A stretch of 64,000 bases of DNA from Aquimarina sp. AU474 (lineage in GTDB: Bacteria; Bacteroidota; Bacteroidia; Flavobacteriales; Flavobacteriaceae): the NCBI RefSeq assembly GCF_900312815.1, contig NZ_OMPE01000009.1:1364001-1428000 (forward strand), read 5' to 3'. A model generated the notes under the pieces. That model did not search any database. It was not told where the DNA came from and saw nothing but the letters and a program-made list of their open reading frames with translations. Made by a program: the position numbers and the translations under genes. Shown in pieces: positions 22,995-44,234 of the stretch; position 1 is the stretch's first letter, and each line of letters starts with the position of its first letter.

Positions 22995-23042
22995 TTTTTT
23001 AATATTTTTGATGGATCATAGAATCTACGATCCTTTTATTTT

Positions 23043-24344: not shown

Positions 24345-24506
24345 AAAAGATAGTTGTTGATTGTGTCAATGTTTACTTAGAAGTGAATACTTCCCAAAGT
24401 AAGTCGCACATAAATATAAGAACTTAAGTCGTTCAATTAATTTAGAATCAGTCTAAAAACGAATACACTTGTAAGGCAATATGCAGTTTATCGTACATGA
24501 ATTTCT

Positions 24507-24520
24507 TTGATTGATATCAT
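24507..24520. promoter_or_regulatory. Possible Crp/Fnr-type site
   Basis: TTGATTGATATCAT matches the TTGATnnnnATCAA pattern with one mismatch. It lies in the 322-bp divergent spacer 24345-24666 between the FAD oxidoreductase and the DUF547 gene; a redox regulator would suit the neighbours. It may be chance. A short GAAGT/ACTTC inverted repeat is also present near 24392-24405. Confidence 0.3.
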
Positions 24521-24666
24521 AAAAAGAAATTAGAGAAATTCTGATTTTGTTTGTAAGTAGCTGATTTTCGGTTCGACTGAATGCCCGTTGCCAAGGTAAA
24601 TTTTAACATTTAAAAAAATATAGTATAAATTCAGTTTTAAAATAAACTGTTTAAAATAGAATACTC

Positions 24667-25377
24667 ATGAAAAGGATAGCAATCATTTTAATTATATTTT
24701 CGGTGCAGTTGGGTTTTTCACAAAGTACAACCGATTTTTTTGCTAAGGCAGATACCTTTTTTAAGACTTATGTGTCTAATGGAAGAGTAAAGTATAATGC
24801 CATAAAGAAAGACCCTACTTCTTTGGATGAATTATTAGCAATAGCTGCCAAAATACAAGTAACAAAAGGTAAGCCCAAAACGTTTCAGGCGTTCTACATT
24901 AATGCCTATAATTTATCTGTAATCAAAGGTGTTGTAAATAAATATCCTGTAAAATCGCCAACAAGTATTAAAGGTTTTTTTGACAAAACTAAGTATACAA
25001 TAGCAGGTAAAGGCACTACTCTAAACGATTTAGAAAATAAAATTCTTAGAAAGAATTTCCCTGCAGAAGCTAGATTTCATTTTGCATTGGTATGTGCTGG
25101 TCTAGGATGTCCTCCTATAATTGCATCTGCATACAAACCCTCTAGCTTAGAACAACAATTACAGAAACAAGCAGTCAAAGCACTTAACAACCCTAGTTTT
25201 ATTAAGGTAAAAGGGAAAAGAGTTCAACTATCTCAAATTTTTGAATGGTATAAGGTAGATTTTACTAGAGACGGAACTGAAATTGACTATGTAAACAAAT
25301 TTAGAAAAGAGAAAATCCCATCTAATGCCAAGGTATCTTATTACCCATATGACTGGACTTTAAACGCAATCAAATAA
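24667..25377 (+). CDS. Secreted DUF547 family protein
   Basis: 236 aa. Signal peptide residues 1-19 (ending GFSQ). DUF547 core: FQAFYINAYNLSVIKGVVNKYPV (about 76-98), TLNDLENKILRK, FHFALVCAGLGCPPI with both conserved Cys, FEWYKVDF. The fold resembles transglutaminase/peptidase-like domains, but activity is unproven. Three further DUF547 genes lie at 34-37 kb. This copy is the most divergent (LVCAGLGCP instead of INCAS-x-SCP) and sits beside a redox pair and a porin-like gene. Confidence 0.88.
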   Translation: MKRIAIILIIFSVQLGFSQSTTDFFAKADTFFKTYVSNGRVKYNAIKKDPTSLDELLAIAAKIQVTKGKPKTFQAFYINAYNLSVIKGVVNKYPVKSPTSIKGFFDKTKYTIAGKGTTLNDLENKILRKNFPAEARFHFALVCAGLGCPPIIASAYKPSSLEQQLQKQAVKALNNPSFIKVKGKRVQLSQIFEWYKVDFTRDGTEIDYVNKFRKEKIPSNAKVSYYPYDWTLNAIK

Positions 25378-25463
25378 TCAAAATAATTAACATCAATATC
25401 ATTAAAAAATAGGGTTAATAACGATCTAAGTGTTTTAATGATACATAAACTAATATGTAAATA

Positions 25464-26375
25464 ATGAAATTAGCTAAGAACATTACCACGGTATTTTTCC
25501 TTTTGATAACAGTAACTTTTGGATTCGCACAAGAACAAGATGATGATGACCAAGGGTCAGTGATCCAAACGTTGACGCCTTCAAAATTAATAGGAAAAGG
25601 GCAATTTGATATCAAATGGTTTAATAATCTATATACTCAAACAGAAAGTACTTTTTCTGATGGGACAGAACCAAGACAAACTTTTTTTACATCTACCGTA
25701 GAGGCCTATACAGGAGTAGGGAATAATAAGAGATGGAATGTAGGTGTTATTTTAGAATTTAGATCAAATGTTGTGGCGGATCGTGATGCTCTTGATGTAT
25801 TTAAATTTGATGGAGAAAGAGGAACAGCACGATCAGGATTTACATCGATTGCTCCATCGGTAAAATTTGTACCTTTTAAAAATGTAAATAATTTCTCGAT
25901 ACAAAGTTCATTCTTTATACCGCTAGCAGGTAGTGAAACAGAACAAGGAGTATTTTTGGATCAGGATGGTTTTACTTGGCAAAATAGATTCTTTTATGAT
26001 TATACGTTTCCAGGAAATAAATTTCAAATTTTTGGAGAGTTAAATTCTGAATTAAACTTTGGAGAAGATGCAGTTTTTGATGCTAATTTTGATACGGTAG
26101 AAGGAAGTTTTGCTAATAACAGTCTTAGATTAACACCAGGAATATTTTTTAGTTATTTCCCTAGCTCGAAATTTACAGTATTAGCACTAGCTCAACATGC
26201 ACAACTTATTGATTTAGGTAATGATTTTGATCAAGATTTTACAGCAGTTGGTGGAGGAGCTAAGTATCAATTAACTAAAGAACTTAATATCGAAACATTG
26301 TATACCAATTTTGTACGTGGTAACAATACTGGATTAGGAGAAACATTTAATATAGGTTTAAGAGCTGTATTCTAA
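25464..26375 (+). CDS. Outer-membrane beta-barrel protein
   Basis: 303 aa. Signal peptide (residues 1-22, ending FGFAQ), an acidic start (EQDDDDQG), then alternating amphipathic strands (FDIKWFNNLYTQTES, RWNVGVILEFRSNV, FSIQSSFFIPLAG, FQIFGELNSELNFGE) and a C-terminal Phe (NIGLRAVF), all typical of a 10-14-stranded outer-membrane barrel. No specific family recognised. Spacing to the DUF547 gene (86 bp) and to the GH113-like gene (32 bp) suggests one transcriptional series. Confidence 0.7.
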   Translation: MKLAKNITTVFFLLITVTFGFAQEQDDDDQGSVIQTLTPSKLIGKGQFDIKWFNNLYTQTESTFSDGTEPRQTFFTSTVEAYTGVGNNKRWNVGVILEFRSNVVADRDALDVFKFDGERGTARSGFTSIAPSVKFVPFKNVNNFSIQSSFFIPLAGSETEQGVFLDQDGFTWQNRFFYDYTFPGNKFQIFGELNSELNFGEDAVFDANFDTVEGSFANNSLRLTPGIFFSYFPSSKFTVLALAQHAQLIDLGNDFDQDFTAVGGGAKYQLTKELNIETLYTNFVRGNNTGLGETFNIGLRAVF

Positions 26376-26407
26376 TAAAATTGTATTTTCAGCGGTAAAA
26401 AGCGATT

Positions 26408-27406
26408 ATGAAAAAGGTCTTTTTACTGCTGTTTATTATTATTTTTTCGGGATGTTCTGCGCAAGAACCAAAAATAAATGGAGTAAGTTTTGTTGGCTCT
26501 CCTAAAGAGATTACTGCAAAAGCAATACAGCCAGTCGTAGCAGTACATGCCAATTGGGCAGCTGTAATGCCTTTTGGGTTTTTAAAAAATCTAGAAACGC
26601 CTACAGTGACTTTTAATATAGAAAGACAATGGTGGGGTGAGCGTAGAGATGGTGCCAAAAGAACTATCGAGTTACTCAACGAGAAAGGAATTAAGGTAAT
26701 GTTGAAACCTCAAATATGGGTGTGGAGAGGTGAGTTTACCGGAAATATAAAGATGAATTCTGAAGAGAACTGGCAGGTTTTTGAGAAATCGTATGAAGAA
26801 TTTATCATGTTGTATGCAAAGTTGGCTCAAGAGATGAATGTGCCCGTGCTATGTATAGGTACAGAATTGCACACATTTGCTCAAACAAGACCTAAGTTTT
26901 GGAGTGAAGTTATCCAAAAAATAAGATTAATTTATAACGGAAAATTGACGTATGCAGAGAACTGGGATCAGTTTGATAATGTTCCTTTTTGGGATCAATT
27001 GGATTATATAGGTATTGATGCATATTTCCCGGTATCTCAAAGTCAAACACCTAGTGTAGAAGAGTTTAAATTGGGTTGGCAAAAGCATAAAAGCGAAATT
27101 ATTGCGCTAAAAGATAAAATAGAAAAACCTGTTTTGTTTACCGAATATGGATATAGAAGCATTCATTATACGGGTAAAGAACCTTGGGACTCCAGTAGAT
27201 CAGAAGGAAAAGTAAACCTAAAAGCACAAAATAATGCGTTAACGGCATTGTATCAAGAATTTTGGAATGAATCATGGTTTGCTGGTGGATTTTTATGGAA
27301 ATGGTATCACAATCATGAGGAAGTAGGTGGAGAAAAGAATAATCGCTTCACCATTCAAAATAAACCTGCAGAAAATGTGGTGCGAACAATTTATAAAGAT
27401 GAGTAA
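26408..27406 (+). CDS. Lipoprotein glycoside hydrolase, GH113-like
   Basis: 332 aa. Lipobox IIFSGCSAQ (Cys16). A TIM-barrel follows: KVMLKPQIWVWRGEFTG (about 97-113), the acid/base Glu in LCIGTELHTF (about 154-163), LDYIGIDAYFP, and the nucleophile Glu in VLFTEYGYRS (about 240-249). This is the pattern of GH113 (endo-beta-1,4-mannanase) and the related GTA-like barrel in flavobacteria. Surface or periplasmic anchoring is likely. No SusC/D pair is adjacent. It overlaps the next gene by 8 bp. Substrate is not certain. Confidence 0.78.
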   Translation: MKKVFLLLFIIIFSGCSAQEPKINGVSFVGSPKEITAKAIQPVVAVHANWAAVMPFGFLKNLETPTVTFNIERQWWGERRDGAKRTIELLNEKGIKVMLKPQIWVWRGEFTGNIKMNSEENWQVFEKSYEEFIMLYAKLAQEMNVPVLCIGTELHTFAQTRPKFWSEVIQKIRLIYNGKLTYAENWDQFDNVPFWDQLDYIGIDAYFPVSQSQTPSVEEFKLGWQKHKSEIIALKDKIEKPVLFTEYGYRSIHYTGKEPWDSSRSEGKVNLKAQNNALTALYQEFWNESWFAGGFLWKWYHNHEEVGGEKNNRFTIQNKPAENVVRTIYKDE

Positions 27407-28142
27407 AACTAATTACATAGTGTTTTTTTTTGTTGCGTGGGGTATCTTTTCTTGTGGTACTGATAATGAAAATAATGTACAATTAGATACTTCATTGGCA
27501 TTTCTGGTTAATGCAAATACTATTGAAATAGATAATGTGATTGCTTGTGCTTCGGGATCCGAAAATGATGAAAATGCAATAATTGCATATGTTTATCCTA
27601 GACCAGGATCGACAAATATAAGATATTATGAAACATCGAGTATTGATGATGATAAGAATAATTATCAAAACTATACTCAGGTAGATCTTACTCCAACCGA
27701 TTTTTTTAATGGTTATTTAAAAAAAATGGAACGTACGAATACTGATGAAAAATGGGTGATTATTACTTTTTTTGAAAACGATAAGTTGCATTTGTCTAAT
27801 CCTATTCGATTAAAACATCGTACCAAACCCACAGAGTTCCTAAATGAGGTAATGATAGATGATATGACATCTGGAATGCCAATTTTTAGTTGGGAAGACG
27901 GTATCGTAGCAGAGAACAAAATTTATTTCCAGGTAGTATCCGATATAAATGATGAATTACTTTCGGGAACTTATACTTTTGAAAAACAATTTCAATACTA
28001 CAAACTAGATAATGTAGTTTTAAACATAACACAAGAAATACCACCGCAATTAACCTTAATGGATATGTATAATTTCACCTTAATGGGTGTTAGTGAAGAT
28101 AATTGGGTTAATTTATTTATAGAAAAAAGCTTTGAACCATAG
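27399..28142 (+). CDS. Lipoprotein of unknown function
   Basis: 247 aa from the ATG at 27399 (MSKTNYIVFFFVAWGIFSC, lipobox Cys19); an upstream in-frame ATG at 27327 would put a non-signal sequence in front and overlap the hydrolase by 80 bp. Mature part is beta-rich and aromatic (AYVYPRPGSTNIRYYE, GTYTFEKQFQYYKLDNVVLNI). No family recognised. It overlaps the GH113-like gene by 8 bp and is 4 bp before the Omp85-like gene, so the three are translationally coupled. Confidence 0.7.
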   Translation: MSKTNYIVFFFVAWGIFSCGTDNENNVQLDTSLAFLVNANTIEIDNVIACASGSENDENAIIAYVYPRPGSTNIRYYETSSIDDDKNNYQNYTQVDLTPTDFFNGYLKKMERTNTDEKWVIITFFENDKLHLSNPIRLKHRTKPTEFLNEVMIDDMTSGMPIFSWEDGIVAENKIYFQVVSDINDELLSGTYTFEKQFQYYKLDNVVLNITQEIPPQLTLMDMYNFTLMGVSEDNWVNLFIEKSFEP

Positions 28143-28146
28143 GATT

Positions 28147-29403
28147 ATGAAGAATTTGATAGTTTGTATTCTATCTCTTTTTTGTTTCGTTTGTACTGCG
28201 CAAAAGTCTAAAATTGTAGACATTAAGATACAAGGAAATAAGAAAACAAAAACATCTGCACTTATCAAACTTACCAATATCCGGCAAGGAAACACTTTAG
28301 ATTCTTTACAAATAGAAGAAGATATAAAGAGACTCAAAAGATTACCTTCTATAGCCCACGCATATTACCAAGTATTTGAGAAAGAGGATGGTTTCGAAGT
28401 TATTTATGGTGTTGAAGAAAATTTTACCATTATCCCATCGGCTAACATATACACTACTAATGATGATGAATTTGCTTTTCGATTAGGGTTGTATGAGTTT
28501 AACTTTTTAGGCCAAAATATAACGTTAGGAGGGTTGTATCAAAATGATATATATAGTTCTTTTGGAATAAATCTAAGAGCACCATTTTTATTTGGTAAGC
28601 GATTGGGGTTAGCTCTTAATTATAGTAATCTTACTACTGAAGAACCTGTGTTTTTGGATAACGGTACAGCAGATTATAAATATAATAATACCTCTTATGA
28701 AATTTTGGGGTTATATCAATTTAATCTTCAAAACCGTATAGAAACAGGAGTTAATTATTTTAATGAAGATTATGTGTATAAGAGTGGGGCTACTGCCGCT
28801 AATATCCCTCAAGATTTTGATGTTAATAAGTTGCTTTTTAAACTGATTTATGAGTACGATAATTTGGATTATGATTATCAATATGTGTCAGGATTTAAGA
28901 GCACATTTAATATGCAATATGTAATTAGTACAGAAAATGTACTCCCCGATTTTGTAATTGCATGGAATGATTTTTTCTATTATCATAAAGTTGGAAAAAG
29001 AGGAAATTGGGCTTCTAGATTACGATTAGGATTGGCCACCAATGACGATTCGCCATTTGCGCCATTTGCCGTAGACAATAATTTAAATATTCGAGGAGTG
29101 GGTAATACCATTGATAGAGGAACAGGTGTTATTGTTTTAAATACAGAGTATAGACATACCATTTATGAGAAAGATTGGTTTGTATTACAGAGTAATGTAT
29201 TTGTAGATGGAGGTAGCTGGCGTAACCCTGGAGGTGATTTTGGTGATTTTGGTGATTCTCAAAACTATAGAATTTATCCAGGTGCAGGTTTACGTTTTAC
29301 GCATAAAAAAATCTTTAATGCTATTTTTAGAATTGATTATGGGTATGGTATTACTGAGGATGCGACCAATGGATTTGTTTTTGGGATCGGGCAATACTTT
29401 TAA
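28147..29403 (+). CDS. Omp85/BamA-family outer-membrane protein with a single POTRA
   Basis: 418 aa from the ATG at 28147. Signal peptide (about 1-18, ending CTAQ), one POTRA domain (about 20-95: KIVDIKIQGNKKTKTSALIKLTNIRQG..RLKRLPSIAHAYYQVFEKEDGFEVIYGVEE), then a barrel to the C-terminal Phe (VFGIGQYF). BamA proteins have five POTRAs and are about 800 aa; this is a minimal member. It resembles small Omp85 proteins that assemble or export a dedicated partner, and the lipoprotein and hydrolase immediately upstream are natural candidates. Confidence 0.82.
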   Translation: MKNLIVCILSLFCFVCTAQKSKIVDIKIQGNKKTKTSALIKLTNIRQGNTLDSLQIEEDIKRLKRLPSIAHAYYQVFEKEDGFEVIYGVEENFTIIPSANIYTTNDDEFAFRLGLYEFNFLGQNITLGGLYQNDIYSSFGINLRAPFLFGKRLGLALNYSNLTTEEPVFLDNGTADYKYNNTSYEILGLYQFNLQNRIETGVNYFNEDYVYKSGATAANIPQDFDVNKLLFKLIYEYDNLDYDYQYVSGFKSTFNMQYVISTENVLPDFVIAWNDFFYYHKVGKRGNWASRLRLGLATNDDSPFAPFAVDNNLNIRGVGNTIDRGTGVIVLNTEYRHTIYEKDWFVLQSNVFVDGGSWRNPGGDFGDFGDSQNYRIYPGAGLRFTHKKIFNAIFRIDYGYGITEDATNGFVFGIGQYF

Positions 29404-33668: not shown

Positions 33669-34379
33669 TTAAGATATGACCTTTTCTTTGTAGTATTGAT
33701 ATAAATCTTCAGATGAGGCTCCCATCCATCTTCTCATATGGATATTTAGAAAATGATATTGCAAACGCCATACACCAATCTCTCTATATCGTCTAGCCGA
33801 AGTAATGACATATTTTGGTATGATAACGAACTCATCGATATCAAAAAGTCGATCTACCAAATCGTTATCTTCGTAAACTATATAGGATTCATCATATCCA
33901 TTTATTTCTTCAAACAACTGTTTAGTAATAAACTGACTTTGATCCCCGCCACGACATCGTTTACTTTGAAATTGAGTAAGCCAACCCAAAAACAACAACC
34001 ATGGATGTTTTGAATCGAATTTCATTCTAAAACACCCGGCAATGTTTTCTTTTTCTATTTCTTTTAAAATATCTTGATCATATCCCTTGGGAGGGTAGGA
34101 ATCTGCATGAAGAAAATACAATACTTCACCTTTTGCAGCTTTTGCTCCTGCATTAAGTTGTTTTGCTCTTCCTTTATCCGAACAAATTAATTTAATACTA
34201 GGGTTTTGTTGAACAGATAATTGACGTACAACCTCTTGAGATTGGTCTACACTGCCACCATCTACAACAATAACTTCTAGAATATTTTCTGTATTTTCTG
34301 TATTGTTAATTAAGTGAGAAAGCAGCGTACGAATAGTAGCTGCTTCATTGAGTATAGGAATTACAATAGATATTTTCAA
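33669..34379 (-). CDS. TIGR04283-type arsenosugar biosynthesis glycosyltransferase (GT2)
   Basis: 236 aa GT-A domain without membrane helices. ISIVIPILNEAATIRTLL (3-20), VVDGGSVDQS (38-47), the 'SDKGRAKQLNAGAKAAKGEVLYFLHADSYPP' block with the DxD-type HADS (about 68-98), and GGDQSQFITKQLFEEINGYDE, which mark the TIGR04283 subfamily that co-occurs with ArsM/ArsS. It likely transfers an activated sugar, perhaps the arsenic-bearing ribose, to an acceptor. Transcribed toward the AraC gene; 72 bp downstream of DUF547 copy 1 and possibly cotranscribed with it. Confidence 0.82.
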   Translation of the reverse strand: MKISIVIPILNEAATIRTLLSHLINNTENTENILEVIVVDGGSVDQSQEVVRQLSVQQNPSIKLICSDKGRAKQLNAGAKAAKGEVLYFLHADSYPPKGYDQDILKEIEKENIAGCFRMKFDSKHPWLLFLGWLTQFQSKRCRGGDQSQFITKQLFEEINGYDESYIVYEDNDLVDRLFDIDEFVIIPKYVITSARRYREIGVWRLQYHFLNIHMRRWMGASSEDLYQYYKEKVIS

Positions 34380-34451
34380 TGTTGGGGTGTTATAATTTAG
34401 GCTATAAATTTACACATTTATGTTTCCTATTAATTTTTCTAAATACTTTTT

Positions 34452-35198
34452 TTAATCTACAACATAAGCAGGGCTAACCGTTTTGCCTTCATTTAGACCC
34501 CAGTCATAAGTTTTATATCCTTTTTCGGACTGATTTGAAATTTTCACAGCTGCATATCGATTAATAAAATCTTTTACATCACCACCATTTACTTTAAAAT
34601 CTTTTTTATACCAAGAAAATATTTTAGATACATTTACTTCAGTTTCGGTAATTGTATTTCTTGTAGGGTCGTTGATGAATTTTTCGGTTTGCTCATCTAA
34701 AGCAACATGAAGATTTTCAGCCGTATATGCCCGGTTCCATACCACTGGACAAGAAATAGAAGCACAATTTATAGCAAAATGAATTCTTGGGTCTCCATAT
34801 TTTCTTAAAATTTTATGTTCTAATTCTCCTAAGCTATGCCAAGCACCATCAATTTTAAAGAATTTTTTGCCCCAAGGATCTTGAAGATCTTTAATACTTT
34901 TTAAAGGATAACTATCGATAACAAGTTTTATGGTATACGCGTTATATGCATTTATCCAGTATGCTAATTTTTCTTCTCTACTCCAGTTTTCTTTTGGGGG
35001 ATTATCTGAAAGTTGTTTGAAATATGTGTATAATTGAGAGCTATCTCTCATAAATCCATCATAATCTACTTTTCCATCTTCGGATACGTTCAATAATAGA
35101 GCTTGGTCCCAAACGCTATGATCAAAAGTGTTTTGTGCATTGGTTTGATTAAAAAATAAAACCATCAATAGCGTCAGTATAGTTTTTAGAGCTTTCAT
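34452..35198 (-). CDS. Secreted DUF547 protein, arsenosugar-island copy 1
   Basis: 248 aa. Signal peptide residues 1-21 (ending NQTNAQ). DUF547 core: REEKLAYWINAYNAYTIKLVIDSYPLKSIKDLQDPWGKKFF, LGELEHKILRKYGDPRIHFAINCASISCPVVWNRAYTA, FINDPTRN, KIFSWYKKDF. Both conserved Cys are present (CASISCP). DUF547 proteins are frequent companions of TIGR04283/ArsS loci, but their role is unknown. Upstream spacer 35199-35559 (361 bp) holds only the terminator of copy 2. Confidence 0.88.
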   Translation of the reverse strand: MKALKTILTLLMVLFFNQTNAQNTFDHSVWDQALLLNVSEDGKVDYDGFMRDSSQLYTYFKQLSDNPPKENWSREEKLAYWINAYNAYTIKLVIDSYPLKSIKDLQDPWGKKFFKIDGAWHSLGELEHKILRKYGDPRIHFAINCASISCPVVWNRAYTAENLHVALDEQTEKFINDPTRNTITETEVNVSKIFSWYKKDFKVNGGDVKDFINRYAAVKISNQSEKGYKTYDWGLNEGKTVSPAYVVD

Positions 35199-35376
35199 AT
35201 GTTAAGTTTTTTTTCACTTCATCAGTCGTATTTTATTTACGAACTCATTTAGTATTGATATGGGGTTTTAGTAGGAAAACGGGAAATTACCTTACAAAAT
35301 CAACGTGCTATTTGACAATTATAGTGCTGATTTATGTTGTAGTAGTTAAAAATATTGGAGGCTAATGAAAGGAATA

Positions 35377-35419
35377 AAAAACACTCAATATGTTGATAAT
35401 CAACATATTGAGTGTTTTT
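35377..35419 (-). terminator. Strong terminator of DUF547 copy 2
   Basis: Perfect 20-bp stem (35377-35396 / 35400-35419) with a 3-nt loop, arms bounded by A5 and T5 runs. It separates the transcription units of DUF547 copies 2 and 1. The rest of the 361-bp gap shows nothing recognised. Confidence 0.85.
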
Positions 35420-35559
35420 GCATTTTGATGAAATATAGCGGTTTAGGAATTTATACGTTTAAAAAGGTTTATAAGAATTTTAACTTTTAGAAACGGTATA
35501 AATAATTAGTTTTTTAAGTGATCATATTTTAAAAAATAAAAGAATGGTAGTAAAATATC

Positions 35560-36486
35560 TTATTCGTTTAAGGCCCAATTGTATTTTTTATAGGTCTTTT
35601 TAGCGTTGGTTTTTATTTTTATTTTAGAATACTTATTTAAAAACTTTATTAACGAACCTTGTTTTTTGAAATCTTTAGCAAACCATAAAAATATTTTAGA
35701 TAAAACAATATTGTTTGCGCTAATCGTATTTCTTTTAGGATCATTTATAAACGCAATAGCTAATTTATCAAGTTCCTGGTTTACATTTTTTGCGGTAAAG
35801 GCTTTGTTTAGAAGTGGCGGACATGAATATGAAGCGCAATTAATACCAAAATGAATTCTTGGATCGTTCATTTTTCTTAAGATTCGATGTTCAACGTCGT
35901 TAAGTGTATACCACTTATTCCCTAATTTAAAAAATCTTAAATCCCAAGGCTCCTTAATATCTTTAATACTTTTTATTGGATAATTATCAATAATTAACTT
36001 TACTGTAAAAGCATTATATACATTTAACCAATAGGCTAGTTTGTCTTGTTTGCTCCAGTTTTCTTTTGGAGTGTTTTTTCCTAATGCATTGAGATAAGCT
36101 CTAAAAGCTGTTCTATTTTGTTTAAAAGCTTTATAATTTATGGTTCCATCTTTTTGTACATTTTTGGATAGTAAAATATCCCATGGTTTATGATCAAATA
36201 CCGCAATATTAGGAGCAACCTTTTCGTTGTTTTTTATTTTAGATTCTTTTTGTGTGCTATCAATTACTTGTTCTTTTTCTGTATTCTCTTGTTTTAGAAC
36301 TAGCTGTTCGGTAGGAGTTTCAGGCGCTTTTTCTTCAATCGGAATATTAGGTTTTATAGAATCTATTTTTTTTGAAGAATCTTTTTGCTCCATAATCATA
36401 GAGTCTTGAGAAGTTTGAACCGCAGCTTTACTTCCGCTACATGCAAAAGATGACCAAATAAATAGAATAACAAGTACTTTGTTCAT
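35560..36486 (-). CDS. DUF547 lipoprotein, arsenosugar-island copy 2
   Basis: 308 aa. Lipobox SSFACSG (Cys16). A hydrophilic low-complexity linker (about 20-95, rich in E, K, Q, S) puts the DUF547 domain at a distance from the membrane. Core: KLAYWLNVYNAFTVKLIIDNYPIKSIKDIKEPWDLRFF, DPRIHFGINCASYSCPPLLNKAFTA, FINDPKRN, KIFLWFAKDF, with both Cys intact. Own promoter region and terminator. Only this copy is a lipoprotein; copies 1 and 3 have ordinary signal peptides. Confidence 0.88.
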   Translation of the reverse strand: MNKVLVILFIWSSFACSGSKAAVQTSQDSMIMEQKDSSKKIDSIKPNIPIEEKAPETPTEQLVLKQENTEKEQVIDSTQKESKIKNNEKVAPNIAVFDHKPWDILLSKNVQKDGTINYKAFKQNRTAFRAYLNALGKNTPKENWSKQDKLAYWLNVYNAFTVKLIIDNYPIKSIKDIKEPWDLRFFKLGNKWYTLNDVEHRILRKMNDPRIHFGINCASYSCPPLLNKAFTAKNVNQELDKLAIAFINDPKRNTISANNIVLSKIFLWFAKDFKKQGSLIKFLNKYSKIKIKTNAKKTYKKYNWALNE

Positions 36487-36767
36487 ATTAAAGTTATTTT
36501 TTAATTAAATGAAGGCATTCTGTATTCGCGAAATTTTTAGAGAAAATTGAAATATTCTCCTAACTTAGGTTCGGGTAATTTTTAATTTGTTGAAATCAAT
36601 AGGCTTTTACTAAATAACCCTTTTTGAGTAGTATAAAACCAAAATTCGGGCCATACTTGATAATATGAATTATTTTAATAGCCTATATACCCTTTAATGT
36701 TTTCCAATTTTTCTACAATCTCATAATAAAGATGGATTGGTCGAGGATATTTTTATAACCTATCAAA

Positions 36768-37478
36768 TCATTGTTCATTTAGGCTCCAGTTGTAGGCCAT
36801 ATAACTATTTTTCGGTAATTTTTCTATTTTCACCTCAGAATATTGGTTAATAAATTCAACAACATCTCCATTATTAAAATCATCTTTATACCATTCAAAT
36901 ATTTGAGAGATACTAATTTTATTTTCGGTGATAATATTCCTGTTAGGATCATTGATAAACTCCATGGTACATTTCTCCATAGCTTCTTCAACGTTTTCAG
37001 AAGTATAGGCTCTATTCATTAATTTTGGAGAAGAAAATGAAGCACAATTAATCAAGAAATGAATTCTAGGCTCATTAAATTTTCTCAAGATTTTATGTTC
37101 TATATCGTCTAGGCTTAATCGTTCATCGTTAATTCTAAAAAACTTTTGATTCCATGGATCATGTAATTCATTAATATCTTTAACCGGATAATTATCAATT
37201 ATCATTTTTACCGCAATAGAATTATAAGCGTTAATCCAGTAGGCAAGCTTTTCTTCTCTAGTCCATTGATCCGTAGGAGGGTTGTCTGATAAGGATCTAA
37301 AATATTTATAAAATAAAGGACTATCTTTCATTACACCTTCATAGTTAACTTTCCCGTCTTCGGTGACGTTAAGGATAAGAATTTGATCCCATACAGAATG
37401 ATCGATCCCGTGTTGAGCTTTTGCTGGGGAGCAAAGCAATACAAGAAAGATTGCACATAATAAGTAGTTATTTTTCAT
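36768..37478 (-). CDS. Secreted DUF547 protein, copy 3, with one conserved Cys lost
   Basis: 236 aa. Signal peptide residues 1-21 (ending SPAKAQ). Very close to copy 1 at the start (HGIDHSVWDQILILNVTEDGKVNYEGVMKDS). The core motif reads EPRIHFLINCASFSSPKLMNRAYTS: the second Cys of the CAS-x-SCP motif is Ser. The remaining blocks (FINDPNRN, IFEWYKDDF) are intact. It may be catalytically altered if the Cys is functional. Flanked by a 281-bp spacer (36487-36767) with nothing recognised and a divergent spacer toward the OYE gene. Confidence 0.85.
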   Translation of the reverse strand: MKNNYLLCAIFLVLLCSPAKAQHGIDHSVWDQILILNVTEDGKVNYEGVMKDSPLFYKYFRSLSDNPPTDQWTREEKLAYWINAYNSIAVKMIIDNYPVKDINELHDPWNQKFFRINDERLSLDDIEHKILRKFNEPRIHFLINCASFSSPKLMNRAYTSENVEEAMEKCTMEFINDPNRNIITENKISISQIFEWYKDDFNNGDVVEFINQYSEVKIEKLPKNSYMAYNWSLNEQ

Positions 37479-37589
37479 TACACTTAGGTTTTATAGTATT
37501 CTTTAAATTATTCATAATAAGCTATTTGCCCTAGATTCGGGAGATAAAAATAACAAAAAATATCGATAAAATGCAAATTTTATGGTTAA

Positions 37590-37608
37590 AACGTAATATT
37601 TTTACGTT
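37590..37608. promoter_or_regulatory. Inverted repeat in the DUF547-OYE divergent spacer
   Basis: AACGTAA (37590-37596) and TTACGTT (37602-37608) form a 7-bp inverted repeat with a 5-bp spacer, about 100 bp from both divergent starts. A possible operator; no known regulator is adjacent. Confidence 0.35.
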
Positions 37609-37705
37609 ATGAGTCAAAAAAAAGCTGATTTTATTTAAATGTCCTACAATTTTAAATTGCAAGATAATATAGGATTATGTATTATTGTAATCGAACTATT
37701 TTGCT

Positions 37706-38926
37706 ATGATTAGTACAGAAATAAGACTCCCTTGTGGAGCGATAATTAAGAATAGATTGGTTAAATCGGCCATGACAGAACGAATAAGTAATAGAAGATT
37801 TGAACCCATAAAAGGTCATGGAGTATTATATGAAAATTGGTCGAATACAGGAGCAGGGTTATTGATCACAGGTAATGTAGTTGTAGATAGAAAACACCTT
37901 GAATCTGCAGGAAATGTTTGTTTTGATGATGAAAAAATGCTTCCTAAAATAGAACCTTGGGCACAGGCGGCAAAATCAAATGGGAACCATGTATGGGTGC
38001 AGATTTCTCATTCGGGAAGACAAACCAATAAATTTAGTACCACACGACCTTTAGCTCCCTCTGAAATTCAGCTACGCAAAATGGGTTTGTTTGGTAAGCC
38101 CAAAGCTATGACCGAAGCTCAGATACAAGATGTAATCAAATCTTTTGTGAAAGCCGCTAGGATTTCTAAAAAGGCAGGCTTTACAGGACTTCAAATTCAT
38201 GCTGCGCATGGGTATTTGTTAAGTCAGTTTTTATCTCCTACTACAAACATCAGAACCGATCAATGGGGAGGAAGTATTGAAAACAGAAGCAGATTACTAA
38301 TCTCTATTCTTAGAGAGGTACGCAAAGAAGTGGGAGCGGATTTTCCGATCTCGGTAAAACTAAATTCTGCAGATTTTCAAAAAGGAGGATTTACGGAAGA
38401 AGAGTCGTTGGAAGTTGTAAAAATGCTAGATAAGGAAAAAATAGATGTGTTAGAAATCTCAGGAGGAACCTATGAAAAATTAGCTTTCTTTTTGATGAAT
38501 GAAGAAGGAGTCGAAATTAGAGAAAGTACTAAAAAGAGAGAGGCTTATTTTATTGATTTTGCCAGAAAAGTAAGAGAAGTCAGTAATTTACCGTTGATGA
38601 TTACAGGTGGGTTTAGGTCGTATGATTTTTGTAATGAAGTACTAGAAAATGGAGAAGTTGATCTTATTGGTATGGCACGCCCTTTTATTACTAATATGGA
38701 AGATATTTCTGGTTTTTTACAAGGAGAGGTTTCATTACTTAAAAACTTTGTGCTAAGAACAGGAATAAAACAATTTGAAGATGCGGCTGAAGGTGGCTTT
38801 TATGCAAGACAATTGATTCGTTTTTCTAAAGGGAAAAAACTAAAACCAAATATGAATCCATTGTGGTGCTCTATGTTTTTGATCTTTTATGAATTTAGAA
38901 AGTCAATGGTTAAAAAAATCTCCTAA
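37706..38926 (+). CDS. NADH:flavin oxidoreductase, Old Yellow Enzyme family
   Basis: 406 aa single-domain FMN barrel. N-terminal LPCGAIIKNRLVKSAMTER (8-26), GLLITGNVVVD (51-61), substrate His pair IHAAHGYLLSQFLSPTTN (His165, His168), the DQWGGSIENRSRLL block, FMN/Arg region VKLNSADFQKGGF, and LMITGGFRS..VDLIGMARPFI. No iron-sulphur domain, so a classical OYE-like ene-reductase. It is the only plus-strand gene in the arsenosugar island, so its link to that pathway is uncertain. Confidence 0.9.
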   Translation: MISTEIRLPCGAIIKNRLVKSAMTERISNRRFEPIKGHGVLYENWSNTGAGLLITGNVVVDRKHLESAGNVCFDDEKMLPKIEPWAQAAKSNGNHVWVQISHSGRQTNKFSTTRPLAPSEIQLRKMGLFGKPKAMTEAQIQDVIKSFVKAARISKKAGFTGLQIHAAHGYLLSQFLSPTTNIRTDQWGGSIENRSRLLISILREVRKEVGADFPISVKLNSADFQKGGFTEEESLEVVKMLDKEKIDVLEISGGTYEKLAFFLMNEEGVEIRESTKKREAYFIDFARKVREVSNLPLMITGGFRSYDFCNEVLENGEVDLIGMARPFITNMEDISGFLQGEVSLLKNFVLRTGIKQFEDAAEGGFYARQLIRFSKGKKLKPNMNPLWCSMFLIFYEFRKSMVKKIS

Positions 38927-39019
38927 AACAAAGTTTTGAAAAAGAACTTTGTAAGCTACTAATCAATAAGAGTATATAAAGATTCGCTACTTTTTTGAAA
39001 AAAGGATTCTAAACAAAAA

Positions 39020-39053
39020 GAAAGCCGAAAACAATTAATTGTTTCCGACTTTC
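39020..39053. terminator. Terminator closing the arsenosugar operon
   Basis: Imperfect 17-bp stem (39020-39036 / 39037-39053, two mismatches). On the minus strand a T-rich tract (CTTTTTGTTT) follows, 27 bp after the arsM stop. It can also serve the convergent OYE gene. Confidence 0.65.
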
Positions 39054-39079
39054 AGGTTATAGTTAATTAGCCTTAAGTT

Positions 39080-40048
39080 TTAGCAGCATCCCCCACCATC
39101 ATAATGATAGGTCGATTCGCTGATAAAAATATCATCTCTTTTTAAATTTGCCAAATCTCCAGCTGTTTTATCACATACGGCGATAGGTTGATTTTTTAGT
39201 AAAACATGGCCCTTCTTGTCATCAAAATAATCATCATCTCCATAATAAATAGCTGCTTTACCGGTAAAAATACAAGGCCCATCTTCTGGCATAGGATCTT
39301 TTATGGCAGCGACCTCAATAGATTCGATATATATCAATTCATCGGTATCATAGTTTTTAGGATCCAAGATACGATAAGGCTTGCGAGCTCTAATTTCTAT
39401 AGTTCCAAAACCAACATCTGTTAATGCTTTCACATACTCTACAATAGGTAAGCTCCCGCTTAAGCATAATGCTCTTAAGCGTTCATCATTTCTAAGATTA
39501 TCATTCATTGGTTGTTCACATGTTGGATCACTCATTACTAATCTGCCATGTGGCTTTAATACTCTATACATTTCTTGTATAGCTTTTTTAAGATCTTCAG
39601 CTTTAAAAATGTTGAATAAACAGTTTTGAGCAGCAACATCAATACTATTATCCTCTACAGGTAGATTAAGTGCATCCCCATAACGAAGATCTACAAAATC
39701 ACTTTTAAACCAATCATTTTGAGCTTCAGCTTCTTTAAAGTTTTTACGAGAAGCTTCGAGCATTTCGTCTACGACATCTACTCCTATAACCCCATTTTTT
39801 TGACGAGAAAAATAAGAGAATTGCAATAATTCCATTCCTCCACCTACACCTACATAAAGTGTTTTAGGACTATTGGTTAAATCACGCGCATTTACAGTGC
39901 TTCCACACCCATAATTCATTTCTTGCATGATCTTTGGGATTTTTAACCCAGGTAATTCCCAGATAGGGTTTGTTGTACAACATAAACCTATATCGGGGGT
40001 TATTGCTGCTTCTTTGTACACATCATGTGTCGTTTCTAAATAGCTCAT
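39080..40048 (-). CDS. arsM: Arsenosugar-type arsenite methyltransferase ArsM
   Basis: 322 aa. SAM methyltransferase (motif I TLYVGVGGGMELLQF, about 63-77; GVIGVDVVDEML) that methylates arsenite toward dimethylarsenic. Arsenic-binding Cys candidates: Cys23-Cys24 (GLCCTTNPIWELPG), Cys48 (MNYGCGS), NCLFNIF, and RALCLSGSLP. The C-terminal domain with DGPCIFTGKAAIYYG, PIAVCDKTA and the final YHYDGGGCC is particular to the ArsM form associated with ArsS, longer and different from the detoxification ArsM. Last gene of the operon, 20 bp after PNP. Confidence 0.92.
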   Translation of the reverse strand: MSYLETTHDVYKEAAITPDIGLCCTTNPIWELPGLKIPKIMQEMNYGCGSTVNARDLTNSPKTLYVGVGGGMELLQFSYFSRQKNGVIGVDVVDEMLEASRKNFKEAEAQNDWFKSDFVDLRYGDALNLPVEDNSIDVAAQNCLFNIFKAEDLKKAIQEMYRVLKPHGRLVMSDPTCEQPMNDNLRNDERLRALCLSGSLPIVEYVKALTDVGFGTIEIRARKPYRILDPKNYDTDELIYIESIEVAAIKDPMPEDGPCIFTGKAAIYYGDDDYFDDKKGHVLLKNQPIAVCDKTAGDLANLKRDDIFISESTYHYDGGGCC

Positions 40049-40068
40049 ATTTCTCTTTCTTTTTTTGT

Positions 40069-40881
40069 TTAAATAGACTTAATTAATTCTTTAAATAAAA
40101 GAATCATTTCAGGCTCGGCCTTTCCGGCCATTTGTATAATTTCTTCGATGTTAACAGGTTTAAGATTATCCGGATCACACTCATCTGTTAATACAGATAC
40201 TGCAGCAACCGGAAGATCTAAATGATTAGCAACGATTACTTCTGGAACAGTACTCATTCCTACTGCATCCGCGCCAATAATTTTCAAGTATTTATATTCT
40301 GCCCGAGTTTCTAATTGAGGTCCCACGACAGATGCATAAACACCCTTGTGAAGGTTAATGTTATTCGTCTTAGCAATAGTTTCTAATTTAGAATTTATAG
40401 CAAGGTCGTAAGGAGCGCTCATATCTGTAAATCGCGTCCCCAATTGTTCTACACCCTTAAAAGCTAAAGGAGAACCTCCTTGTAAATTAATATGATCATC
40501 AATAAGCATTAATTCTCCTTTTTTAAAGTTTAAATTAATAGCTCCAGAGGCATTAGATACTAATAATGTTTTAATGCCTAATTGGTGCATGATTCGCACT
40601 GGGTACGTAACATCCTGAAGTGAATATCCCTCATATAGATGAAACCGCCCTTGCATAACGATTACTGTTTTGCCTTCTAGTTTTCCGTAAATTAGCTTTC
40701 CTTTATGAAACTCGACTGTTGCAGTAGGAAAATTAGGGATATGATTGTAACTTACTTCTTTGATAATTTCTATCTCATCTAGTAATTGTCCTAATCCTGT
40801 TCCTAGTATAATACCTATTTCAGGATTGATAAATCCTTTATCTTTTAGATAATCTGTGGTTTCTTCGATGTATTTTGTCAT
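40069..40881 (-). CDS. Purine nucleoside phosphorylase (trimeric type)
   Basis: 270 aa, normal length. Phosphate site GIILGTGLGQL (23-33), GRFHLYEGYSLQDVTYPVRIM (about 79-99), NASGAIN, GPQLETRAEYK, and VGMSTVPEVIVA. Releases a purine base and ribose-1-phosphate from nucleosides. It lies 6 bp after a nucleotidyltransferase-like gene and 20 bp before arsM. Because ArsS makes a 5'-deoxyadenosyl-arsenic compound, this enzyme is well placed to cut off adenine and leave the arsenic-bearing sugar-1-phosphate; that role is inference. It could also be the cell's general PNP. Confidence 0.9.
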   Translation of the reverse strand: MTKYIEETTDYLKDKGFINPEIGIILGTGLGQLLDEIEIIKEVSYNHIPNFPTATVEFHKGKLIYGKLEGKTVIVMQGRFHLYEGYSLQDVTYPVRIMHQLGIKTLLVSNASGAINLNFKKGELMLIDDHINLQGGSPLAFKGVEQLGTRFTDMSAPYDLAINSKLETIAKTNNINLHKGVYASVVGPQLETRAEYKYLKIIGADAVGMSTVPEVIVANHLDLPVAAVSVLTDECDPDNLKPVNIEEIIQMAGKAEPEMILLFKELIKSI

Positions 40882-40887
40882 TCTTTG

Positions 40888-41493
40888 TTAGGTTAAAAAT
40901 TCTTGAAAAGCCGATATGTCTTTAATATCTTCATAGTAATCCACATCGTTTCGTGTTTTTAATAATGTATAGTTGTGTTTTTGTAAATCGTCTAGAGTGT
41001 CTTTTAGTACAGTATTAGTTCCCCAAACCTTATTTTCAAAAATTGTAGGATGTAGGTCTTTCATCCCTAATAAATAGTATCCTCCGTCTTCTGCAGGTCC
41101 TACAACATGGTCATGAGTTTCTAGTTGATTAAAAGCAGATTCTATATCTTGTTGACTAAGATCATACATGTCACTACCGATGATGATGATGTTTTTATAA
41201 CCTTGCTCAAAACCTTTGGTAAATGCATGTTTCATTCTTTGCCCCAAATCATCTCCATATTGCTGTTTTTTGGTATAAAAATCCGCATCCCAAATATCAT
41301 TTTCTCTAATCTTTACCGAATAGTGAACTTGCTTCGTATAAGGGAGGTTTTTCGTAATTGTAACCGTATGATTAAGTAACATTTTATATACACCCAAGGC
41401 GGCTTCATCTCCTATTGTAGCAGCTAATCGAGTTTTGCACTTACCAAGCTCAGGGTTACGTGTAAAAATTAATAATAAGTTTTCCGTATTCAC
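40888..41493 (-). CDS. TIGR04282/DUF2064 nucleotidyltransferase-like protein
   Basis: 201 aa, GTG start at 41493 overlapping the rhodanese stop by one base. The conserved family opening LLLIFTRNPELGKCKTRLAATIGDEAAL (5-32) fits this start. Also GDDLGQRMKHAF, NIIIIGSDMYDLSQQDI, VVGPAEDGGYYLLGM, and DVDYYEDI. The fold is GT-A-like, close to CofC/MobA-type sugar or cofactor nucleotidyltransferases, and the subfamily is named for co-occurrence with arsenosugar genes. The intact RNPELGKCKTRLA loop suggests it is active. Confidence 0.85.
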   Translation of the reverse strand: MNTENLLLIFTRNPELGKCKTRLAATIGDEAALGVYKMLLNHTVTITKNLPYTKQVHYSVKIRENDIWDADFYTKKQQYGDDLGQRMKHAFTKGFEQGYKNIIIIGSDMYDLSQQDIESAFNQLETHDHVVGPAEDGGYYLLGMKDLHPTIFENKVWGTNTVLKDTLDDLQKHNYTLLKTRNDVDYYEDIKDISAFQEFLT

Positions 41494-41993
41494 TATTTGT
41501 ATATTTTTTTTCCTTTATGCAACCATTTTTCCCATTGTTTGGAGCAAGGATGTACATTATCTGTAACTTCTCCTTTACTATTAATTACAGGATGATCATT
41601 ATTCTTCCATTCAAAAATACCACCATATAAATTGTATACATTGGTATAACCTGCTTGCATAAGTTTTTCAGAAATATCTTCAGATCGTATACCAAGACTG
41701 CAATAGACAATTATTTTGGTGTCTTTATCTATCTGCGGTTGGTTTATTATTTTTTTAATATCAAAATGAGTATACCCTATATGCATTGCACTTTTTAAAT
41801 GACTAATATTATATTCCTCTAGTTCTCTTGCATCTAAAAGTATGGCTTCCCCTTGTTCACCTGTTAATTCATCAACAGATATATACGGAATGCTTTCATT
41901 GTTATATTGATCTAATAGTTCGGCTAGCGAATCCTGACCAAATGCAAGTATCGAAAACATACTATAAATTAATACTGTGATTATTTGTTTCAT
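41493..41993 (-). CDS. Secreted single-domain rhodanese
   Basis: 166 aa. Signal peptide (1-19, ending LAFGQ), then one rhodanese domain (about 36-135) with active-site Cys98 in VYCSLGIRSEDIS. Conserved LLDARELEEYNISHLKSAMHIGY precedes it. A second Cys sits in a C-terminal tail (VHPCSKQWEKWLHKGKK). It is exported, unlike the other enzymes of the operon, so it may handle sulphur or thioarsenic species in the periplasm. Overlaps the next gene by one base. Confidence 0.88.
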   Translation of the reverse strand: MKQIITVLIYSMFSILAFGQDSLAELLDQYNNESIPYISVDELTGEQGEAILLDARELEEYNISHLKSAMHIGYTHFDIKKIINQPQIDKDTKIIVYCSLGIRSEDISEKLMQAGYTNVYNLYGGIFEWKNNDHPVINSKGEVTDNVHPCSKQWEKWLHKGKKIYK

Positions 41994-42083
41994 AAGAATA
42001 AAGAGCTATTCTTTTTGATTTTAGGCATTATATATTATGCCTGTTATGATAAATTGAAAATGAAATTGATAGAGATAACGCAA

Positions 42084-42767
42084 TTAATGCATTATCAAAC
42101 GAGGAGAACCTTTATTGTATGAAATAAATGTATACGTAGTATAGCTTTCAAGTGTATTAGAAGTATTTATTGTATTAGAATACTGAAATATTAATTGAAT
42201 AATCTTTAGCAAAGATTTAGATAATACTTTGCCAAACGTTTTAATGATCTTAAGATCTTCTATACTATCAATATCATACAAAACCTGAAGTTTTGCTACT
42301 TCGATAGCATTATTCTTAAGAAGAGCCGTTATACTTTTTGCTAATTTCTTAGATCTCCAAGGAAGTTTTAGAAAAGCTAACGGATCAAATTGAGATTTAT
42401 GTAATCCCATTAAATAGAAACCTCCATCTACAGAGGGGCCAATAACAAATTTATTTTTTTCTAGAAGTTTAGCACTATCTAATAAATGTTTTTTGGTTAA
42501 AAAAGGTGTGTCGTTACCAATAGTGATCACATTTTCAAATCCTTTTTCATAAATACCTTGAACTGCATTTACAAAACGCTCACCAAAATCACGCCCTTGC
42601 TGCTGTACTTCGGTAACGATATAGTATGGTAGTTTTGTACTAACAACTACGGATTCTATAGTACTATTAAGTTCAGTAAATAATTGTTGACCACCAGAAA
42701 TTGGCTTACGCAATGCTTCTTCCTGAGCGGAATTGGCAAAAACTAAAATAGCGGTCTTCGAATTCAT
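42084..42767 (-). CDS. Divergent second DUF2064-like protein
   Basis: 227 aa. It shares the GRDFGERFVNAVQGIYEKGFENVITIGNDTPFLTKKHLL and VIGPSVDGGFYLMGL blocks with the protein at 40888-41493. The N-terminal loop that should read like RNPELGKCKTRLA is ANSAQEEALRKPI here, and an extra 50-residue C-terminal tail (about 178-227) is present. Probably a duplicated copy with altered or lost nucleotide binding. 10 bp after arsS; followed by a 90-bp gap before the rhodanese. Confidence 0.75.
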   Translation of the reverse strand: MNSKTAILVFANSAQEEALRKPISGGQQLFTELNSTIESVVVSTKLPYYIVTEVQQQGRDFGERFVNAVQGIYEKGFENVITIGNDTPFLTKKHLLDSAKLLEKNKFVIGPSVDGGFYLMGLHKSQFDPLAFLKLPWRSKKLAKSITALLKNNAIEVAKLQVLYDIDSIEDLKIIKTFGKVLSKSLLKIIQLIFQYSNTINTSNTLESYTTYTFISYNKGSPRLIMH

Positions 42768-42777
42768 TCTCTTTTTA

Positions 42778-43833
42778 TTAAGCTACAGTACCTTGACAAC
42801 TACTTCCTGCACCTGCAGTACATCCATAGCAATGTTGTGAAATTACAATATTCCTGTCATTTAACAAATCTTCATTGTATTCACTGATATGTTTTACTTT
42901 ACTAGCAACTTTAAGGTCTAGCATTTGATTAAAGTCACAATCATATAACCAACCATCCCAACTTATAGAAATAGTATTGGTGCACATAACGCTCTCTACA
43001 GCAGTAGAATTGTATGCTTCTACAAGAGCGTACATATAATCTTCATAATTTTCTGAGGCAATAAGATAATCTAAAAATCTACTTATTGGTAGATTAGTAA
43101 TTGCAAATAAATTATGAAACTGGATTCCGAAATCCTCTAATAATGCTTTTTTAAAATCTTTTTCCATAGATGCTTGATCTCCCGGTAAAAAAGCTCCCGA
43201 AGGATTGTATACCAAATCTAATCTAAGAGAACTACCTGGCATACCATAGCCACGTTCATTTAGTTCTTGTAAAGCTTTAATAGATTTATCAAAAACCCCG
43301 TCTCCTCTTTGTTTATCAGTTTTTCCTCTTGTCCAATGTGGCATAGAAGAAACTACATGCACATTATGTTTTTTGAAAAAATCCGGTAAATCATAATATT
43401 TTTTATTAGCTCTTATAATAGTAAGATTACTTCTTACGATGAAATCTTTGATACCAGCTTTACTCGCTTCTTCTACAAACCACCTAAAGTTAGGGTTCAT
43501 CTCTGGTGCGCCGCCTGTAAGGTCTAATGTATGAGCTCCAGTCTTTTTTATAACGTCCAAGCATTGTTGCATGGTTTCTCGAGTCATAATTTCTTTGCGA
43601 TCAGGACCAGCATCTACGTGGCAGTGTTCACAAACCTGATTGCACATATATCCTACATTTATTTGTAAGATTTCTAATTTTTTTGGCCTTAAAGGTTTAT
43701 GACCTGTTTCTGCAATTTTATCTGCAAATTTGGGTAATTCTCCATTTGCAAAGATACCATTACTAAGAATTTGCAGTTGTCTATTAGAATCTGCTAATTC
43801 GTCATTTCTTTTGTGTAAGGACTTTGTAGCCAT
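42778..43833 (-). CDS. arsS: Arsenosugar biosynthesis radical SAM protein ArsS
   Basis: 351 aa. Radical SAM motif CNQVCEHC (Cys64, Cys68, Cys71) in QINVGYMCNQVCEHCHVDAGP, then LDLTGGAPEMNPNFRWFV, and a C-terminal Cys-rich section (MCTNTISISWDGWLYDCDFNQML.. SQHCYGCTAGAGSSCQG) that matches the ArsS family. ArsS joins the 5'-deoxyadenosyl group of SAM to dimethylarsenite, giving the arsenoadenosine precursor of oxo-arsenosugars. Second gene of the operon, 65 bp after the AhpD-like gene. Confidence 0.94.
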   Translation of the reverse strand: MATKSLHKRNDELADSNRQLQILSNGIFANGELPKFADKIAETGHKPLRPKKLEILQINVGYMCNQVCEHCHVDAGPDRKEIMTRETMQQCLDVIKKTGAHTLDLTGGAPEMNPNFRWFVEEASKAGIKDFIVRSNLTIIRANKKYYDLPDFFKKHNVHVVSSMPHWTRGKTDKQRGDGVFDKSIKALQELNERGYGMPGSSLRLDLVYNPSGAFLPGDQASMEKDFKKALLEDFGIQFHNLFAITNLPISRFLDYLIASENYEDYMYALVEAYNSTAVESVMCTNTISISWDGWLYDCDFNQMLDLKVASKVKHISEYNEDLLNDRNIVISQHCYGCTAGAGSSCQGTVA

Positions 43834-43898
43834 AAAAGGTTTTTAGTCTAAATTGTTTTGTATTCTATGCTTATTTTATGTGAAACTATAGTTTTCTA

Positions 43899-44234
43899 TT
43901 ACATAGAAAGTTTTTCGTATTTATTCATCATTTGTACGCCATGTACTAAGGTTGCGCCACTTTCTATAGCTGCTCCTGTATGAACAGCCTCCATCATCTC
44001 TTCTTTTGTAATTCCTTTTTGTAATCCATCTTTTGTATATGCATCTATACAATATGGACATTTTACTACATGAGACACAGCTAAGGCAATCAAAGATTTT
44101 TCACGAGCACTTAAAGCGCCCTCTTCAAATACTTTTCCATAGTAATCAAAGAATTTATTTCCTAACTCTTCACTCCATTCAGTGATTTTTCCAAATTTTC
44201 TTAAATCTGCGGGATCATAATATGTTTTTGACAT
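43899..44234 (-). CDS. AhpD/carboxymuconolactone-decarboxylase-like protein of the arsenosugar operon
   Basis: 111 aa single CMD/AhpD domain. Redox motif CPYC (Cys59, Cys62) in SHVVKCPYCIDAYTKDGLQKG, with MEAVHTGAAIESGATLVHG after it. Such proteins are thiol peroxidase-like reductants; a subgroup is consistently encoded beside arsS. It could reduce pentavalent arsenic intermediates or protect the radical SAM enzyme. First gene of the seven-gene operon. An inverted repeat lies 18-38 bp before its start. Confidence 0.85.
   Translation of the reverse strand: MSKTYYDPADLRKFGKITEWSEELGNKFFDYYGKVFEEGALSAREKSLIALAVSHVVKCPYCIDAYTKDGLQKGITKEEMMEAVHTGAAIESGATLVHGVQMMNKYEKLSM

Follow-up and report, generated by a model that had tools for sequence, protein, structure and literature searches.

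A purine nucleoside phosphorylase as a candidate enzyme of arsenosugar biosynthesis in Flavobacteriaceae-type bacteria

INTRODUCTION

Arsenosugars are a common form of organic arsenic in algae and seafood, and which enzymes follow ArsS in their biosynthesis is the question raised by a locus of Aquimarina sp. AU474. The stretch analyzed, called here the window, has 64,000 nucleotides (NZ_OMPE01000009.1:1364001-1428000; its genome is labelled G000) and contains, beside the genes of ArsS and ArsM, those of a purine nucleoside phosphorylase (PNP), of a rhodanese, and of proteins of the families TIGR04282, TIGR04283, and DUF547. ArsM methylates arsenite to the dimethyl form, and the radical S-adenosylmethionine (SAM) enzyme ArsS adds a 5'-deoxyadenosyl group, giving 5'-deoxy-5'-dimethylarsinoyl-adenosine; ArsS and the ArsM–ArsS arsenosugar pathway are reportedly the subject of a 2021 article by Cheng et al. 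in Angew Chem. On balance, we see a little better than an even chance that the locus is the island by which Flavobacteriaceae-type bacteria make arsenosugars, with its PNP as an enzyme of the pathway. A preliminary description of the window had listed these genes and proposed that they form a downstream pathway; the observation is confirmed, and the interpretation finds partial support and becomes more specific.

The arsenosugar link was known at annotation level, since five families (TIGR04167, NF038099, TIGR04169, TIGR04282, and TIGR04283) bear "arsenosugar biosynthesis" names in NCBIfam, and all five are present in the island (of eight families); the association itself is thus not new. The glycosyltransferase annotation also appears in a 2026 paper, in the part of it available (PMC13077682), while the accessible text of a 2025 review treats the radical SAM adenosylation of arsenic and gives there no later step (PMC12159101). 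Within the partial texts returned by a literature search on arsenosugar biosynthesis, we found no description of steps after ArsS. Papers matching a search for arsenosugar together with purine nucleoside phosphorylase concern, judged by titles and opening lines of abstracts, human arsenic metabolism or exposure, and the pairing with methylthioadenosine gave no match. Three points are added here: in one genus the PNP is a strict partner of ArsS, TIGR04282 is predicted to fold like a nucleotidyltransferase, and the cassette can stand alone.

RESULTS

Co-occurrence of the PNP with ArsS

In one genus of 199 species, the 13 species with ArsS are exactly the 13 with a PNP of the type found in the window (type A, 59–75% identity). 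In the 186 ArsS-negative species, type A is absent (0/186) and the best PNP match, at 53%, is by its residues of another type (type B). ArsM, TIGR04282, and TIGR04283 track ArsS as well, with TIGR04282 in 13/13 and TIGR04283 in 12/13 of the ArsS-positive species versus 3/67 of the ArsS-negative ones. PNP and arsS lie on the same contig, within about 9 kb, in 12 of the 13 species. The thirteenth (G680) is an assembly of about 450 contigs, 76% complete, where the arsS match falls below the cut-off and has internal stops, and where neither ArsM nor TIGR04283 was found. Elsewhere in the genome, 10 of the 13 have a further PNP match, at 46–51% identity. The association between PNP and ArsS gives a Fisher value of 1e-20, which ignores shared ancestry; two separate type A groups of this genus are present in the tree (built without the top-30 family matches, other repeats, and rows shorter than 200 residues), so that more than one gain is possible, yet the independent events are few. 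In this genus, then, the enzyme whose presence and absence follow those of ArsS and ArsM is the type A PNP, a strong candidate for an undescribed step of the pathway. Three ArsS-negative species of genus g2 (G554, G574, and G581) carry TIGR04282 and TIGR04283 with neither ArsM nor a type A PNP.

At family level (149 genomes, one per genus), ArsS is present in 111 genomes and the PNP in all 111 of these. It lies within 5 kb of arsS in 79 and within 15 kb in 14, and is farther away or on another contig in 18. Among the 38 ArsS-negative genomes, 22 have a PNP match, 13 of them at 60% identity or more. In four genomes with a distant PNP (G134, the one examined of the 18, and G234, G130, and G304 of the phylum sample), the PNP stands beside the rhodanese and TIGR04282, joined in three cases by ArsM, so that these genomes have a split island.

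Residues of the active site

At positions 200, 243, and 257, whose numbering and roles we take to be those of human PNP, the window enzyme has Leu, Asp, and Ile. The combination is Leu, Asp, Ile/Val in 30/30 linked PNPs of the family and Leu, Asp, Ile in 13/13 of the genus, and type B has Phe, Asp, His in 8/8 family and 17/17 genus sequences (residues were read in aligned subsets rather than in all 111 genomes or in the second PNP copies of ten species). In human PNP, His257 binds the 5'-hydroxyl of the ribose, and its loss in type A fits a 5'-substituted nucleoside.

Layout of the island

All the genes named in the preliminary description are found at their positions, and with family assignments based on profile scores against the curated NCBIfam or Pfam cut-offs the island reads as follows.

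43899..44234, minus strand: AhpD-like protein, TIGR04169, opening the core operon (198 bits, NCBIfam cut-off 120)
42778..43833, minus strand: ArsS, radical SAM enzyme, TIGR04167 (438 bits, cut-off 300)
42084..42767, minus strand: divergent TIGR04282 paralogue (T4282B), without the GxxKTRL loop (102 bits, below the cut-off of 134)
41493..41993, minus strand: rhodanese NF045521, N-terminus signal-like by eye (201 bits, cut-off 145)
40888..41493, minus strand: TIGR04282 protein with a predicted CofC/FbiD-like nucleotidyltransferase fold (219 bits, cut-off 134)
40069..40881, minus strand: type A PNP, NF006054 (339 bits, cut-off 218)
39080..40048, minus strand: arsenosugar-type ArsM, NF038099 (576 bits, cut-off 400)
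39020..39053, minus strand: terminator-like hairpin 3' of ArsM (the region scanned has 9 sites of this kind, where shuffles lead one to expect 4.5)
37706-38926, plus strand: old-yellow-enzyme (OYE) gene, between the ArsM hairpin and the DUF547 genes
36768..37478, minus strand: DUF547 protein c, N-terminus signal-like by eye (Pfam 99.8 bits, cut-off 27)
35560..36486, minus strand: DUF547 protein b, N-terminus lipoprotein-like by eye (Pfam 94.4 bits, cut-off 27)
34452..35198, minus strand: DUF547 protein a, N-terminus signal-like by eye (Pfam 99.1 bits, cut-off 27)
33669..34379, minus strand: glycosyltransferase family 2 (GT2) protein of family TIGR04283 (230 bits, cut-off 182)

The seven genes of the core (44234-39080, AhpD-like to ArsM) are separated by −1 to 90 bp, and all of their products except the TIGR04282 paralogue exceed the curated cut-off. 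A single operon is seen in this tight core and not in the full span, into which the hairpin (39053-39020) and the OYE gene on the plus strand intervene before the DUF547/TIGR04283 part, with gaps of 72–361 bp. The cysteines C64, C68, and C71 of ArsS (CxxxCxxC), noted earlier, are invariant in an alignment of 13 sequences, and the GGGCC end of ArsM is read in the sequence. Among the matches listed, where very near records may be missing, the window ArsS is nearest to records of Aquimarina and other Flavobacteriaceae (91–92%). Between DUF547 genes b and a, a perfect 20-bp inverted repeat with a 3-base loop (35377-35419) is terminator-like on both strands. Some 4–12 kb off, at 21396-29403, occur by eye a GH113-like gene, a flavin adenine dinucleotide (FAD) oxidoreductase, a 4Fe-4S membrane protein, and a fourth DUF547 gene; in relatives, the first three of these kinds come after TIGR04283.

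Conservation around arsS

Of the 395 phylum genomes sampled, 156 have TIGR04167, and neighborhoods were taken from 99 of these (100 loci, 101 with the window; short contigs and unlisted loci were left out, and the family f18 was thinned to 14). They contain AhpD (86), TIGR04282 (58), TIGR04283 (45), ArsM (24, 18 strong), DUF547 (19), PNP (14, all from the window's family), and rhodanese (14, 12 strong). TIGR04282 and TIGR04283 are thus wide partners of arsS, and the linked PNP goes with the window's family and its near kin. The 38 loci of the family, including 20 further best-scoring neighborhoods out of the 111 ArsS-positive genomes, have AhpD in 38, TIGR04282 and PNP in 31 each, ArsM in 28, rhodanese and DUF547 in 26 each, TIGR04283 in 23, and OYE in one. 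Complete islands most often read AhpD-ArsS-rhodanese-TIGR04282-PNP-ArsM-(fatty acid hydroxylase)-DUF547-TIGR04283.

A third set consists of named arsS loci (the best 80 of at least 592), with downstream counts from the 64 having at least 9 kb downstream. Strong matches are PNP (50), TIGR04282 (49), ArsM (35), rhodanese (35), DUF547 (31), and TIGR04283 (23); with weak matches added, rhodanese rises to 37, ArsM to 36, and TIGR04283 to 24. Five loci outside or at the edge of the window's family (L341, L342, L344-L346) also have a PNP near arsS. In the remote family f18 (L122-L135), ArsS, TIGR04282, and TIGR04283 are adjacent on one strand in 14/14 loci examined, and no AhpD-like gene, PNP, or ArsM match occurs within the stretch fetched for these 14. 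Whether relatives keep the extra genes near arsS had been set beforehand as the test of the preliminary description; they do so across genera.

Between ArsM and DUF547, some loci have a fatty acid hydroxylase family protein (PF04116; L184 5480-6373 and relatives), found in 10/38 family loci (cluster c10) and 21/64 named loci and absent from the window island; its presence in relatives hints at a lipid product. DUF547 is a conserved neighbor of arsS loci, and the exported, DUF547-dependent stage proposed earlier is suggested by this neighborhood (26/38 family and 19/101 phylum loci); the AlphaFold 2 (AF2) model of DUF547 protein a gave no clear match in a fold search.

The two TIGR04282-like proteins

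Of the two TIGR04282 proteins claimed earlier, the one at 40888-41493 stands (219 versus 134 bits). Its AF2 model (predicted local distance difference test, pLDDT, 96) matches CofC/FbiD guanylyltransferases well above the lower rows, at 14–18% sequence identity; against the CofC profile TIGR03552 it scores 38, below the cut-off of 105, and is not filed as CofC. The protein is thus predicted to fold like a nucleotidyltransferase of CofC/FbiD type and is a putative nucleotidyltransferase. The label "arsenosugar biosynthesis glycosyltransferase" thereby covers a family of nucleotidyltransferase-like fold, which has members in some ArsS-free genomes as well.

The second (42084-42767; 102 versus 134 bits) matches profile positions 70-189 only, and the GxxKTRL loop is not conserved in its subfamily; judged from sequence, it is a divergent paralogue and not a family member. 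Such loop-less paralogues have 21 matches in the 80 named loci (examples, beside the window, are L272, L274, L278, L290, L305, L322, and L325), 14 of them followed within 600 bp by an open reading frame of more than 950 aa. In L290 this frame encodes a SusC-type receptor, and after it come the genes of a SusD-like lipoprotein, of a protein lacking any Pfam match, and of a metallophosphoesterase. Some species may have a transport module joined to the pathway; none is present in the window.

Cassettes without ArsS

Thirteen ArsS-negative genomes of the family have a type A PNP (12 by residue reading, plus G439). Five of them (G411, G517, G182, G429, and G495) keep rhodanese-TIGR04282-PNP-TIGR04283, three with DUF547, having no ArsS in the genome and no ArsM at the locus. 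A DUF547-rhodanese-TIGR04282-PNP row is found in L233, whose genome belongs to the same class and is ArsS-negative. The cassette thus has its own coherence, which speaks for PNP, TIGR04282, and TIGR04283 being biochemically coupled, yet not for arsenic alone; the genes after ArsS do not serve arsenic exclusively.

DISCUSSION

From gene content, conservation, co-occurrence, residues, and predicted fold, we infer the reactions after ArsS, the nucleotide, the acceptor, and any roles of the rhodanese, AhpD-like, and DUF547 proteins. Once ArsM and ArsS have made 5'-deoxy-5'-dimethylarsinoyl-adenosine, the type A PNP would cleave the adenine from it by phosphorolysis, with 5-deoxy-5-dimethylarsinoyl-ribose 1-phosphate as the other product. 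The CofC/FbiD-like TIGR04282 protein would couple this sugar phosphate to a nucleotide, giving a nucleoside diphosphate (NDP)-arsenoribose, and the TIGR04283 glycosyltransferase would transfer the arsenical ribose to an acceptor (e.g., glycerol or a lipid head group). Phosphorylase, nucleotidyltransferase, and glycosyltransferase are the simplest reading of PNP, TIGR04282, and TIGR04283 in this order. A front end (ArsM, ArsS, AhpD) would plug into a cassette (rhodanese, TIGR04282, PNP, TIGR04283, often DUF547) able to stand alone. This chain of reactions, with the ArsS-free cassette as a stand-alone pathway from nucleoside to riboside, is put forward tentatively, at somewhat less than even chances.

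Several observations weigh against this reading or against a purely arsenic role of the PNP. It is near arsS in only 14/101 phylum loci, every one from the window's family. Residue 257 is not diagnostic, since ArsS-negative class members and PDB entries 4lna and 4m1e are hydrophobic at this position too (the type A PNP of ArsS-negative G439 has Leu there). By its score against the methylthioadenosine phosphorylase (MTAP) profile TIGR01694 (96, cut-off 275), the window enzyme is a PNP and not an MTAP. The genome of the window has one other PF01048 protein, uridine-phosphorylase-like by eye, which makes a general salvage role plausible. Five of the 13 ArsS-negative genomes with a type A PNP keep the cassette with no arsenic genes at the locus, and in the other eight the PNP is surrounded by unrelated genes over the stretch fetched. 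The 12 treed ArsS-negative type A PNPs nest inside the ArsS-positive clade, and the enzyme therefore has another use. The downstream arsenic pathway proposed earlier is thus partly supported, by conservation near arsS and by the tracking of ArsS in the genus, and weakened by these ArsS-free cassettes.

The type A PNP could instead serve the salvage of 5'-deoxyadenosine or methylthioadenosine, clearing an adenosine that ArsS and further radical SAM enzymes release as a by-product, and building no sugar. Asp243 and a hydrophobic 257 fit a nucleoside that has adenine as its base and carries a 5' group other than hydroxyl, which we take to be the situation in MTAP; no obvious methylthioadenosine nucleosidase or MTAP was seen in the PF01048 search of the window's own genome, and the PNPs kept among unrelated genes agree with salvage. 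Each species of the genus should, however, have other radical SAM enzymes, and the PNP nevertheless tracks ArsS exactly (13/13 versus 0/186). Salvage also leaves unexplained that the PNP stays with TIGR04282 when ArsS is distant, and with TIGR04282 and TIGR04283 in five ArsS-free genomes; we consider it unlikely. Less likely again is that rhodanese-TIGR04282-PNP-TIGR04283(-DUF547) forms an arsenic-independent route, from nucleoside through ribose 1-phosphate and NDP-ribose to a ribosylated product, either of the surface or a lipid, while the arsenic genes would only share its position or feed it now and then. Such a route would account for the five cassettes with no ArsM at the locus, for the row in L233, and for the three ArsS-negative species of the genus that keep TIGR04282 and TIGR04283, but not for the rarity of these two families in ArsS-negative species (3/67) or for their adjacency to ArsS on one strand in all 14 f18 loci examined.

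A glycosyltransferase acting directly on the arsenical riboside, with no NDP-sugar, is what the NCBI name of TIGR04282 would imply; the predicted fold is guanylyltransferase-like instead, and we give this reading a still lower probability. A part of the PNP in reducing arsenate through arsenolysis, so that ArsM receives arsenite, appears very improbable: the second PNP of 10/13 ArsS-positive species would serve equally, and the residue change and the linkage to TIGR04282 and TIGR04283 are left unexplained. Reduction of arsenate by PNP in vitro is mentioned in the available part of a review (PMC12608789).

The preferred reading, with the PNP as an enzyme of arsenosugar biosynthesis, can be set beside the known systems. 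Among PNPs, the window enzyme passes the cut-offs of both NF006054 and TIGR01700 (the latter by 0.35 bits) and shares a TDxCxPDxL stretch with 4lna and 4m1e; it differs from the ordinary type by the change of His257 to a hydrophobic residue, and type A tracks ArsS within one genus. CofC, FbiD (Rv2983), and 3-phosphoglycerate guanylyltransferase use phospholactate, phosphoenolpyruvate, and phosphoglycerate, whereas the substrate of TIGR04282 would be a sugar 1-phosphate. PNP, rhodanese, and DUF547 bear no arsenosugar name in NCBIfam. With the ArsM–ArsS pathway, the island shares ArsS and the arsenosugar-type ArsM, and adds to them PNP, TIGR04282, rhodanese, DUF547, and TIGR04283 in a conserved order.

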